Origin: Candidatus Poribacteria bacterium
GTDB taxonomy: Bacteria; Poribacteria; WGA-4E; B28-G17
Reading direction: 5' to 3'
NCBI GenBank assembly: GCA_021162805.1
Contig: JAGGXZ010000123.1
Span: forward strand, 1 to 35,058
DNA: 35,058 nt
In this document: positions 2,508-6,076 of the stretch, one piece after another
Position numbering within the stretch: position 1 is the stretch's first letter
Layout of the letters: each line of letters starts with the position of its first letter
The notes under the pieces: generated by a model
What the model was told of the DNA's origin: nothing
Seen by the model: the letters and a program-made list of their open reading frames with translations, nothing else
The model's database searches: none
Program-made: the position numbers and the translations under genes

Positions 2508-3074
2508 CTAGGACTTCAAGAAGGTATCACGCCAGTAACGATTGACCAGTGGTGCGGCAGGGTTATGACACATGGCTCTGTCCTTCACGACGAGCGTGGT
2601 AACGGGTGCTTCGGAGAACTTCGTAAACAGTATGTCGTGTCCCATGCAGAGGCCCATGATAACGTTCAGCTCTGTCCCCTGCTGATTCAGCGTCAGGGCC
2701 TGTCCGACGGGGTTACAGCCGCCGTTGACCGTGCATGCCACGGATGATACCTCAAACCCGTGGCTTTTCAGTATCTTGACCAGTTGTCTTGTCTCCTCCT
2801 TTAACCCTATACAGAAGGCTACGCCCAGCTTTTTCAACCCCATCCTCTTCGAGAACTCTATCAACTCACGCACCCTCGGCCAGATCCTATAGCCCTCCGT
2901 CTCCACGGATTTAGCGACGGTGGCGATCCTTCTCACCTCAGGGTCCGTATTTCGTATCTCCTCGGCCTTTTTCAAGGCTTCCCCTGCGCTTCTACGCGGG
3001 CAGAAGCTGGGCGTCTTTTGGATATCCTCCGTACAGGCCTGTACCTCGCAAAACACGCAGTTTACCTCAGCCAT
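2508..3074 (-). CDS. DUF1847 cysteine-rich metal-binding protein
   Basis: Protein of 188 aa in the DUF1847 family, described as putative metal-binding proteins of anaerobes. The N-terminal cysteines CVFC-x3-AC followed by SFCP, and later conserved cysteines in AFCIGLKEE, VNGGCNPVGQA and GLCMGHD, are typical. Start at 3074 has GGAGG upstream and gives the usual family N-terminus. It lies 14 bp after metF and is the last gene of the metV-metF operon, so a role linked to one-carbon or metal-cofactor chemistry is plausible but not established. Confidence 0.8.
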   Translation of the reverse strand: MAEVNCVFCEVQACTEDIQKTPSFCPRRSAGEALKKAEEIRNTDPEVRRIATVAKSVETEGYRIWPRVRELIEFSKRMGLKKLGVAFCIGLKEETRQLVKILKSHGFEVSSVACTVNGGCNPVGQALTLNQQGTELNVIMGLCMGHDILFTKFSEAPVTTLVVKDRAMCHNPAAPLVNRYWRDTFLKS

Positions 3075-3088
3075 AGCGGTCCTCCTCT

Positions 3089-4006
3089 CTAAGGTCGCGG
3101 CATAAGACCTGCCCTTTCGACTATCTCCGGCACGGCTCCCTCCCATTCGATCGCCATGATATGCACGCCGGAAACGCCCTCTATCTCCCTGATCTGCTGG
3201 ATGATCTCGACGCAGATCCTGATTCCCTCTTTCGCTCTGTTCTTCCTCGGCGTCTTACGGATGCGCTCTATGATCTCCTCCGGCACATCCATCCCCGGCA
3301 CCTTGGTGGCCATATACTTAGCCGCTCCCAGGGATCTGATCGGCCCCACACCGGCCAAGATATAGACCTTCTCATGAAGGCCCATATCCCTCACCTGCTT
3401 CATGAACTCCTTAAATCTCGGCACGTTGAAGATCATCTGGGTCTGGATGAAATCGGCTCCGGCCTTCACCTTCTTCGCCAATCGATGGGGTCGAAGCTCG
3501 AATGGAGCTGCGAAGGGGTTGGCAGCGGCTCCTATAAAGGCCAACACCTCGCCGGATATCTCCTCACCGCATTGGAATTTCCCCTCGTCCCGCATGCCCT
3601 TCAACGTTTGAATCAGCTGGATGGAATCGAGATCGTATACGCCTTTGGCCTCAGGATGATTGCCGAGGCTCGGATGATCCCCTGATAGGCACAGGAAATT
3701 TCGAATTCCTAAGGCTACAGCGCCTAGGACATCGCTTTGGATGGCTAGACGGTTTCTATCCCTGACGACGATCTGCATCACCGGATCGATCCCCATCTCC
3801 TTCAATATAATGCAGCTCGACCAGCTCGACATCCTCACCACAGCCGACTGATTATCGGTGACGTTCATGGCGTCGCAGTAAGGCTTGAGCGTTTCGCCCT
3901 TGTTCCTGATCTCGTCGGGAGCAGCCCCTTGAGGTGGACCGACCTCAGCGGTGACGGCGAAGGCGCCGCTTTCCAGGACTTTCTCCAGATTAGTTCCCGC
4001 TTTCAT
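3089..4006 (-). CDS. metF: methylenetetrahydrofolate reductase
   Basis: Protein of 305 aa matching MetF, a flavoprotein TIM barrel that interconverts 5,10-methylene-THF and 5-methyl-THF in the cytoplasm. Recognisable features are the early AVTAEVGPPQG strand, NVTDNQSAVVRMSS, the FLCLSGDHPS motif near residue 115, and GADFIQTQMIFN. The start has AGGAGGATA just upstream. It follows metV by 28 bp, and MetV-MetF pairing is characteristic of acetogens and other Wood-Ljungdahl or methyl-branch organisms, where MetV binds Fe-S/zinc and partners MetF. Length is normal for the family. Confidence 0.93.
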   Translation of the reverse strand: MKAGTNLEKVLESGAFAVTAEVGPPQGAAPDEIRNKGETLKPYCDAMNVTDNQSAVVRMSSWSSCIILKEMGIDPVMQIVVRDRNRLAIQSDVLGAVALGIRNFLCLSGDHPSLGNHPEAKGVYDLDSIQLIQTLKGMRDEGKFQCGEEISGEVLAFIGAAANPFAAPFELRPHRLAKKVKAGADFIQTQMIFNVPRFKEFMKQVRDMGLHEKVYILAGVGPIRSLGAAKYMATKVPGMDVPEEIIERIRKTPRKNRAKEGIRICVEIIQQIREIEGVSGVHIMAIEWEGAVPEIVERAGLMPRP

Positions 4007-4034: not shown

Positions 4035-4766
4035 CTACAACCCTAAGCTCTCTATGACCTTCTTCGTCTCCTTCAGCTTCTCCATAAGGTCGATGGGCTC
4101 GACCTCCAACCTGCGCGGCCTCACAGCCTTGCTCCAATCGTGAGGTTCGTTTATCTTTGAGAACTTATCGAGCTCGCCGAGCTTTTCCAGCCTCCTGTAG
4201 ATCATAACCCAGGCGCAATCGCGTGTGGGATCTACCTCGCATTTGCCATCTTTAGTTGTCCCCCCGCAGGGTCCGTTCAACAACCCCTTGGGACATTGCA
4301 CCAGCGGACAGATGCCGGCGGTTTTGCCCAGCTCGCATGCGCCGCACGCCTGGCACTCCTCCTTGAAGACGGCGGGGCCTCCGCTGGAAAAACCCAAGGC
4401 GTTGACGGAGGGATATACAGGTTTTACGATACCCATCTCCTCCTCCAGATATCCCCTCACCGCCTGTGCCCCATCGCCGCAACACTGCATTAACATGGCG
4501 TCACATTGCTCTATCTCCTCCCTGTGTTCTCTCAGGAACATCGAGGACATCGGGAGATAACAGGCGAACACGGCGAAAGGCAAAGCGATTTTACCTACGA
4601 TCTCCTTGCCTTCCTTCTCCAGCCTCTCCGCCATCTCGTTTACCTCTTTCACGCCGCCGGTGTGGAAGATCGTAGCGCATCCTCCACAGCCCATAAGGAC
4701 TATCCTTTTCTTGCCCTCAAGGTACTCCAGGATTTCCTCGAAGGGTTTCTGTTCCTGTGCGTTCAT
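4035..4766 (-). CDS. metV: MetV-like methylenetetrahydrofolate reductase C-terminal (iron-sulfur) subunit
   Basis: Protein of 243 aa of the MTHFR C-terminal/MetV family. Cysteine-rich motifs include GCGGCATIFHTGG near the N-terminus, QCCGDGAQAV in the middle, and CQACGACELGKTAGICPLVQC followed by GPCGG and CEVDPTRDCAW. These fit a protein binding Fe-S and zinc. MetV partners MetF in the acetogen enzyme and is needed for electron input. The start at 4766 was preferred to 4823 because AAAGGAGGATGGG directly precedes it. It is first in the metV-metF-DUF1847 unit; its promoter may lie within the left inverted-repeat arm of the adjacent cassette. Confidence 0.88.
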   Translation of the reverse strand: MNAQEQKPFEEILEYLEGKKRIVLMGCGGCATIFHTGGVKEVNEMAERLEKEGKEIVGKIALPFAVFACYLPMSSMFLREHREEIEQCDAMLMQCCGDGAQAVRGYLEEEMGIVKPVYPSVNALGFSSGGPAVFKEECQACGACELGKTAGICPLVQCPKGLLNGPCGGTTKDGKCEVDPTRDCAWVMIYRRLEKLGELDKFSKINEPHDWSKAVRPRRLEVEPIDLMEKLKETKKVIESLGL

Positions 4767-4830
4767 CCCATCCTCCTTTATCGGTTTGCGGATGAGAGAA
4801 GCTGCCAAAGGCAACTTGGGCAAAGCCTTT

Positions 4831-4873
4831 TATCCGCTGTTATACGCTGTCGCCCCAAATCCTCAATCATAAT
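4831..4873 (+). repeat. left arm of long inverted repeat flanking the TauE/SafE gene
   Basis: Starting TATCC-G-CTGTTATACGC, this 43-bp arm aligns with the reverse complement of 5744-5785. I count about 34 matching bases in blocks of 5, 11, 6, 4 and 8, with one 1-nt gap. The two arms point towards each other and enclose one AT-rich gene, like the termini of a mobile cassette. Confidence 0.75.
4839..4866 (-). promoter_or_regulatory. candidate outward promoter in the inverted-repeat arm, towards metV
   Basis: On the minus strand TTGAGG (4861-4866) is followed after 16 bp by TATAAC (4839-4844). It would drive metV, whose start is 73 bp further on. Weak match; the position inside the repeat arm is what makes it notable. 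Confidence 0.3.
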
Positions 4874-4938
4874 AGGGCGCTTTCTACTTATGGTCTTTAT
4901 CCTCTCAAGTTTTATAGGTTCTTCAATTTTCGGCCGCT

Positions 4939-5718
4939 TTATATTAATCCTACGGCAACGGAAAGCCCAATAAGTCCTATGAGAACCCCAAATATTCCTT
5001 TTAAGACCCATGCTTTCATTATCTTTGTAGTTCGGGCACCTAACCATGAGAAAAACATTGTCACAAGTCCAATTGTTAGGACATAGAACCAGTTTTGAAA
5101 ACCATGTATTGTCAAGTTCGTTGCCCCAATTGCTGCAACGGGTATCATCTGAGTAGAAGATGTGCCTATGGCGATATGCATTGGATATGCGAGCGCATTA
5201 AAAATGGGCATGTAGTAAATACCTCCACCAAAGCCGCAAAGACCCGTTGCTATTCCAGCCAAAAGCATAAATCCTCCAAGTTTTAACCCATGCTCCAACT
5301 TTCCTACCTGATCAACTGTTACTCTTGGGGGCATTTTCCCTTTACTCTTTATAGAAGAATATGTCATATAAATTCCGACGCCAATGCATGCAATACCAAA
5401 AATTGTTTTGAGAATTCTGGATGGAACATACATTGCTATTTGGGTACCGATTATCACACCAACTGCTGCTCCTATAGCAGCTACAATAACCCCTTTTTTA
5501 TATACATGCTTCATCCTGTAATGCGTGATCACACCTGGTATTGTGGCAATAGCTATAACAGCCATATTTACCGCATAGGCTGTTTTGATGGATAAACCTA
5601 AGAGTACCATCATCATAGGTATTCTTAAAAAACACCCACCGATTCCAAGCCAAGTAGCTAAAAAGCCAGCGATTGCTCCAATTAAAAGTATCCACACTAT
5701 CTGCAATAATACTTCCAT
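4939..5718 (-). CDS. TauE/SafE family (sulfite/sulfonate exporter-like) membrane protein
   Basis: Integral membrane protein of 259 aa with about eight hydrophobic segments. The N-terminal half carries the family signature GFLATWLGIGGCFLRIPMM, and the internal repeat carries GLCGFGGGIYYMPIF. Such proteins are proposed to export sulfite, sulfoacetate or other organosulfur anions; the actual substrate here is unknown. The start has AGGAGGAGGT upstream. The gene is visibly richer in A+T than its neighbours (for example 19 G/C in the 60 bases from 5341) and is enclosed by inverted repeats at 4831-4873 and 5744-5785, which indicates recent acquisition as a cassette. Confidence 0.85.
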   Translation of the reverse strand: MEVLLQIVWILLIGAIAGFLATWLGIGGCFLRIPMMMVLLGLSIKTAYAVNMAVIAIATIPGVITHYRMKHVYKKGVIVAAIGAAVGVIIGTQIAMYVPSRILKTIFGIACIGVGIYMTYSSIKSKGKMPPRVTVDQVGKLEHGLKLGGFMLLAGIATGLCGFGGGIYYMPIFNALAYPMHIAIGTSSTQMIPVAAIGATNLTIHGFQNWFYVLTIGLVTMFFSWLGARTTKIMKAWVLKGIFGVLIGLIGLSVAVGLI

Positions 5719-5743
5719 TGTTTAATACCTCCTCCTACCATGA

Positions 5744-5785
5744 ATTATGATATAAATTTAGGGCGATTGCGTATAACAGTGGATA
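5744..5785 (-). repeat. right arm of long inverted repeat flanking the TauE/SafE gene
   Basis: Read on the minus strand this arm begins TATCC-A-CTGTTATACGC and ends ATCATAAT, matching the left arm at 4831-4873. It abuts, with no gap, the terminator hairpin at 5786-5807. No obvious target-site duplication was found outside the arms. Confidence 0.75.
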
Positions 5786-5807
5786 GGGGCGAAGGGTCCT
5801 TCGCCCC
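5786..5807 (-). terminator. terminator hairpin of the ORP-like operon
   Basis: GGGGCGAAGG (5786-5795) pairs perfectly with CCTTCGCCCC (5798-5807), 11 nt after the stop codon of the last operon gene. No U-tract follows; instead the inverted-repeat arm begins immediately. Confidence 0.7.
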
Positions 5808-5818
5808 CGATGTTCACC

Positions 5819-6076
5819 TCACCCTCTGGTCATTTTCGCCCCGCACTTCGGACAGCTTATCTGATAACACGGGGTTCCTGGCTGATGGGGGATCTGAGCT
5901 CCGCAGGAAGGGCAAACGCAGTAGCCGCCGGGACCGAGTCCGAAGCCTCCCATACGACCTCTGCCGCCGCCTCTACCCATACCTCTGCCCATTCCCCTGC
6001 CATAACCTCTTCCACCTAGACCTCTTCCGGTTCTGGGGCCCTGGCCTCTCGGCCCTGTTCCATCTCCCCTAGGCAT
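5819..6076 (-). CDS. DUF5320-type Gly/Arg-rich protein with C-terminal zinc ribbon
   Basis: Small protein of 85 aa. The N-terminus MPRGDGTGPRGQGPRTGRG is the hallmark start of DUF5320-type proteins. It continues into a Gly/Arg-rich run (residues about 20-50) and ends with a four-cysteine zinc ribbon, CVCPSCGAQIP and then ISCPKCGAKM. The coiled coil usually found at the C-terminus of such proteins is missing here, yet it occurs on four other proteins of the operon. GGAGGTGTGAAAC precedes the start, and the gene lies 3 bp after the NifX-like gene. It is the last gene before the terminator. Function unknown; the zinc ribbon and context suggest a small metal- or nucleic-acid-binding partner. Confidence 0.75.
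   Translation of the reverse strand: MPRGDGTGPRGQGPRTGRGLGGRGYGRGMGRGMGRGGGRGRMGGFGLGPGGYCVCPSCGAQIPHQPGTPCYQISCPKCGAKMTRG

Follow-up and report, generated by a model that had tools for sequence, protein, structure and literature searches.

How did a single AT-rich gene for a membrane exporter, enclosed by inverted repeats and with no recombinase of its own, come to lie inside an operon of a Candidatus Poribacteria bacterium? The gene occupies 4939..5718 on the minus strand of the window, as we call the whole 35,058-nt stretch of DNA that was analysed, and encodes a protein of 259 aa. An earlier note, made from the letters of the window, had named it a TauE/SafE gene far richer in A+T than its surroundings, and both descriptions held; the product scored 131.8 bits against the PF01925 profile (curated cut-off, 32.6 bits), and the gene has a GC content of 0.40 and a GC3 of 0.335, against GC3 values of 0.485-0.726 in 28 other genes of the window. 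The TauE/SafE assignment is profile-based, and anion export is the predicted function. A sequence search returned no solved relative of the protein, and nothing matched in an Rfam search.

The inverted repeat around this one gene proved to be real. The arms at 4831-4860 and 5756-5785, which lie 895 nt apart, match in opposite orientation at 26 of 30 positions (87%); among 1000 dinucleotide shuffles of the gene flanks, none gave an inverted match better than 21/30 over 30 nt, so that the observed value was never equalled. The arms had been described as 42-43 bp long, of which the outer 30 nt stood and the inner extension did not: over 43 nt only 29 positions match ungapped, and longer pairing requires a 1-nt gap. 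Moreover, part of the inner extension (ATCATAAT) falls within a host-specific leader segment that homologues of the gene lack, so that meaningful arm symmetry stops at about AAAT. Within the window the arm core TATCCRCTGTTATACGC occurs at these two sites alone (expectation 0.08), and in the 4.35-Mb host genome it is found at the arm pair and at a single 2-mismatch site in unrelated sequence; a search of that genome for other cassettes bounded by the same arms thus yielded no further copy of the ends. The dinucleotide TA is present at the outer end of both arms. Separately, a 16-nt exact match, CATAATAGGGCGCTTT, links positions 4868-4883, at the 3' end of the cassette, to unrelated sequence elsewhere in that genome (L012 574-589, on C202).

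The gene lies between a small Zn-ribbon protein gene upstream (5819..6076, minus strand) and a DUF5981 gene downstream (4035..4766, minus strand; PF12225), the product of which resembles the C-terminal part of methylene-THF reductase. The DUF5981 gene probably starts at ATG 4766, not at the listed TTG 4823, as judged from three features: the TTG lies in the remnant of a recombination site described below, the ATG is preceded by AAAGGAGG, and the homologue in a related genome aligns from residue 21. That related genome (G001), a single genome of the same family and a sister genus, carries the NifX-like, Zn-ribbon and DUF5981 genes contiguously on one contig with no TauE gene, the gap from the Zn-ribbon stop codon to the GTG of DUF5981 being only 13 nt long. 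An empty site in relatives, which the earlier note had proposed to look for, was therefore present. Exactly at the position of this gap the window holds about 1 kb, comprising a hairpin, the TauE cassette and the site remnant, which indicates that an element split the operon; as the empty site comes from a different genus, the exact target sequence is not reconstructable from it.

No close TauE homologue occurs among 58 relatives of the same class, in which the best matches reach at most about 38% identity. When genome contigs from bacteria and archaea were scanned, in contrast, proteins with 80-94% identity over roughly the whole length emerged from metagenome-assembled genomes (MAGs) of unrelated phyla: a MAG labelled only as bacterium (L038), WOR-3 (L039), 'Thermococci' (L040), Latescibacteria (L041) and Acetothermia (L045). 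At the DNA level, identity to the window gene is 91.0-93.1% for L038-L040, 76% for L041 and 79% for L045. In a tree the copies cluster across phyla, with the window copy placed with L038 and L039; ingroup branching alone was used, and the outgroups, which were in wrong reading frames, were disregarded. The flanks of the window copy, of L038, of L039, of L040 and of the L041/L045 pair are mutually unrelated. A unit of about 90-93% nucleotide identity thus recurs in four unrelated contexts (the window, L038, L039 and L040), and the same-family genome provides the site without it. TauE was found neither in viral contigs nor in plasmids, phages gave no close match (a single one, at 29%), the exact 3' arm was not found in viral contigs, and 99 relatives of the L045 genome did not contain the cassette DNA. 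Cassette exchange across the archaeal and bacterial domains has been reported (PMC9668308), and the present case is alike in having close cassette relatives in bacterial and nominally archaeal MAGs; it differs in that the archaeal copy, L040, sits on a 5.4-kb contig, and its archaeal label should not alone be taken to prove cross-domain transfer, since mis-binning is possible.

A foreign, mobile gene between inverted repeats could have been moved in more than one way. The earlier note had proposed either a non-autonomous mobile cassette or paired miniature elements; if the locus were a non-autonomous transposon or two MITEs, its arms would be terminal inverted repeats recognised by a transposase, TA would possibly be a target duplication, and the gene would have moved in trans. 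The near-perfect symmetry over 30 nt, the TA at both outer ends, and the combination of a single foreign gene, no recombinase of its own and an empty site in a relative all speak for this. The host genome holds neither a second copy of the ends nor an autonomous partner, which counts against it, although a fragmented MAG may lack repeats. 

The substrate of integron integrase (IntI) is an attC site folded into a hairpin, which the enzyme cleaves within the R' box, after the G and before the TT. An attC site is defined by a folded palindrome bordered by an R'' box (RYYYAAC) and an R' box (GTTRRRY); the crossover takes place on the bottom strand, between bases 1 and 2 of R' (PMC12901181). The 5' boundary of the window copy, TATCCACT-G|TTATACGC (5769..5785, minus strand), consists of an L'-like box and an R' core box, and homology starts at its GTT. 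In the alignment of the 5' flanks of the window copy, L038, L039 and L040, homology begins with GTTAT(AC)GCAATCGCCC; upstream of the GTT, neither the window nor L040 is related to any of the other copies, and L038 and L039 share about 18 nt more. The same holds in a second clade, in which the BLAST alignment of L041 with L045 starts at L045:2473, the G of GTTATACGCC, which is the corresponding GTT. The box in the window, GTTATAC, deviates from the R' consensus at one position, and the crossover would lie between 5777 (G) and 5776 (T).

The other end behaves differently. At the 3' boundary, GCGTATAAC-AGCGGATA (4831..4847, minus strand), the R''-L'' boxes of a cassette attC recur without a mismatch behind the TauE gene of L040. 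Homology between the window and L040 passes through this boundary and ends at 4829; the two are homologous through GGGYGACAGCGTATAACAGCGGATAAA and then diverge, and GCGTATAACAGCGGATA is exact at the L040 3' end. At their 5' ends, L038, L039 and L040 lack the outer 8 nt of the arm, with TATCC, and the whole arm is present at the L040 3' end. Such asymmetry fits an integron cassette and not the symmetric ends of a transposon. Together with the coincidence of the homology boundaries with the integron crossover, and with the true attC in sister cassettes described below, it makes transposition in either form an unlikely explanation. Passenger-gene transposons and MITEs are alike in that inverted repeats flank a cargo gene in the absence of a transposase; they differ from the present locus with its asymmetric homology boundaries, its lack of further end copies and the attC in its sister copies. 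Of the proposal of a non-autonomous mobile cassette carrying an anion exporter, the foreign origin, mobility, lack of autonomy and predicted cargo were borne out, and the transposon or miniature-element type was not.

We consider it likely that the TauE gene reached its place between the Zn-ribbon and DUF5981 genes as an integron gene cassette, inserted outside any intact integron; its candidate membership in the integron gene cassettes rests on the boundaries and the mobility of the unit. As a circular cassette inserted by IntI into a chromosomal site, the element would start with TTATACGC, continue with the gene and close with its attC in the order R''-L''-loop-L'-R'. The gene would then be preceded by the R' half and followed by the R'' half, and since R' and R'' are complementary by construction, the two would take on the appearance of terminal inverted repeats. 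The right arm would correspond to L'-R' (TATCCACT-GTTATACGC); the left arm, read along the strand of the gene, would be R''-L'' (GCGTATAAC-AGCGGATA), and the outer TATCC/GGATA part of the arms would represent the L' and L'' boxes. Expression of the gene could proceed by read-through or from a captured leader.

The putative attC of the TauE cassette (4788..4847, minus strand) is degenerate. It has a GCGGAT/ATCCGC stem, and its folded bottom strand is the plus strand of the window; R'' and L'' are shared with L040 and an L' hexamer is present, yet R' is unrecognisable (CATCCGC-AAACC, with no final GTT). The fold is weak, with z between -0.6 and -1.8 (-1.8 for the site as delimited here). Because this attC is degenerate and has no recognisable final GTT box, we infer the insertion event rather than observe it. 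No 3' attC was seen in L038 or L039. Among the genomes of the homologues, the known L040 site was the only attC-like one with similar R''-L'' boxes, and the others had no attC-like palindrome; plasmid BLASTN with the attC regions of the window and L040 gave short chance matches only. A canonical attC does stand behind the gene in the second clade: in L045, R'' GTATAAC and R' GTTATGC surround an 87-nt imperfect palindrome immediately after the stop codon, and the bottom strand folds with z -5.9.

These imperfections lend something to the view that the gene came by ordinary horizontal transfer, through homologous or illegitimate recombination, and that the inverted repeat is a chance or regulatory feature; the imperfect attC at the locus is compatible with it, as is the presence of the gene in L038 and L039 without a recognisable 3' site. 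It is nonetheless very improbable, given that the window and L040 share both boundaries in unrelated contexts and that the repeat exceeds 1000 shuffles.

Integrons themselves have left traces in the host genome. Three canonical attC sites of a GCCTAAC...GCGGCTGAGCTTGGTCGTTAGGC type were found, at C178:44985-45054, C178 ~45762-45828 and C119:16069-16135, and the two sites on C178 enclose an MntA/HepT-like toxin-antitoxin pair. Two integron-integrase relics adjoin these attC sites (L103, G000:C178:43000-45997; L104, G000:C119:14000-18000), with a TIGR02249 score of 172 bits versus 53 for XerC; the relics share 85% identity across 381 nt, each has a premature stop and lacks the catalytic C-terminus, and the one on C178 neighbours the MntA/HepT-like genes. 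The attC sites and relics indicate that the lineage has hosted integrons. An intact integrase was not found in the MAG, which is 95% complete. A C-terminal tyrosine recombinase fragment near the end of contig C9 (L078, ~2946-3116) matches integron integrase positions 259-315. The L045 genome, for its part, encodes an integron integrase above the curated cut-off (400 bits), so that integrase is represented by relics in the host and by an intact IntI in the genome of a homologue. The latter is an open frame of about 430 aa at L074 12328-13230, on a 13-kb contig on which neither attC nor an integron array was found beside it.

Several observations count against the integron reading: the degenerate attC with its weak fold, the departure of GTTATAC from the consensus, the lack of a 3' attC in L038 and L039, and the failure to find, in the host genome, either an intact integrase or another attC of the TauE-locus sequence type. 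The L'-like box before the gene, too, is unexpected under simple insertion at a random site; it may be a remnant of a preceding attC or of an attC-like target. This last point bears on a variant of the integron reading, in which the cassette would be the survivor of a small decayed array and TATCCACT, with the hairpin directly upstream of the 5' boundary (~5786..5808, minus strand), would be what remains of the preceding attC. The hairpin had been called a terminator; it folds well, but it has no T-tract and is not a canonical terminator, and a terminator scan gave no report there. It is possibly the remnant of a preceding attC, and it has no counterpart in the empty site of the sister genus. 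Ranked among GTTR sites, the hairpin before the GTT falls at 1.3% in the window and 2.5% in L040. In L040, moreover, an imperfect direct repeat of 21-24 nt, AATATCTCGGGAATTGGGA, is present at both ends of the unit (before 2151 and at ~3137-3160; shuffle P ~0.003), which could represent attC 3' halves or a target duplication. The hairpins and the direct repeat fit the remains of neighbouring attC sites, short of proof. A general rule of a hairpin before the GTT was considered and rejected, as it applies to the window and L040 only and the other four copies have no significant hairpin. That absence, and the lack of a convincing R''-L'' partner upstream of the hairpin, leave a decayed array possible but doubtful.

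A further peculiarity of the window copy concerns its leader. Compared with L038-L040, the window carries an extra stretch just before the TauE gene, which includes the 22-nt segment TATCATAATTCATGGTAGGAGG (5731..5752, minus strand); the segment is absent from the homologous cassettes and exact at two other places in the host genome, C152:8820-8851 (L005/L075, within a 32-nt match to the window) and C21:7952-7973 (L016). In the host genome the segment, which includes the ribosome-binding site, immediately precedes three unrelated genes; a search of 84 other genomes of the phylum, allowing up to 2 mismatches, did not find it. One might speculate that the cassette gene gained a host expression signal after its arrival and that the 22-nt segment is a small dispersed leader element which domesticates imported cassettes, a proposal we regard as rather unlikely. 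Beside the 32-nt repeat, at the end of contig C152, lies a long imperfect palindrome, GGCAGGGCAGGAGGACTC...GTTCCCTGCCTGCC (L005 1533-1627), which is perhaps a separate dispersed element.

Isolated attC sites are termed SALIN, in the usage of PMC12690207, and clustered ones CALIN. The TauE locus resembles a SALIN-type isolated cassette in that one gene of foreign composition lies outside an intact integron, with a GTT crossover on one side and an attC-like site on its 3' side; it differs in that the attC is degenerate and its final GTT box unrecognisable. Cassette insertion mediated by attG sites was described by Loot et al. 2024 (doi 10.1038/s41564-023-01548-y, as cited in PMC12901181 and PMC12444791). 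The two cases are alike in that a single cassette enters the chromosome at a site outside integrons, which in the present case lies within an operon; they differ in that an L'-like box precedes the crossover here and that the target is seen only in the empty site of a different genus.

On the integron reading, one anion-exporter cassette, at about 90% DNA identity or more, is common to hydrothermal-sediment lineages that are very distant from one another, and a second clade bears a different attC type. The split operon, taken together with the empty site of the sister genus, would be a tangible example from nature of a cassette inserted outside integrons, and the locus suggests that isolated integron cassettes can pass for inverted-repeat transposons when one genome alone is read.
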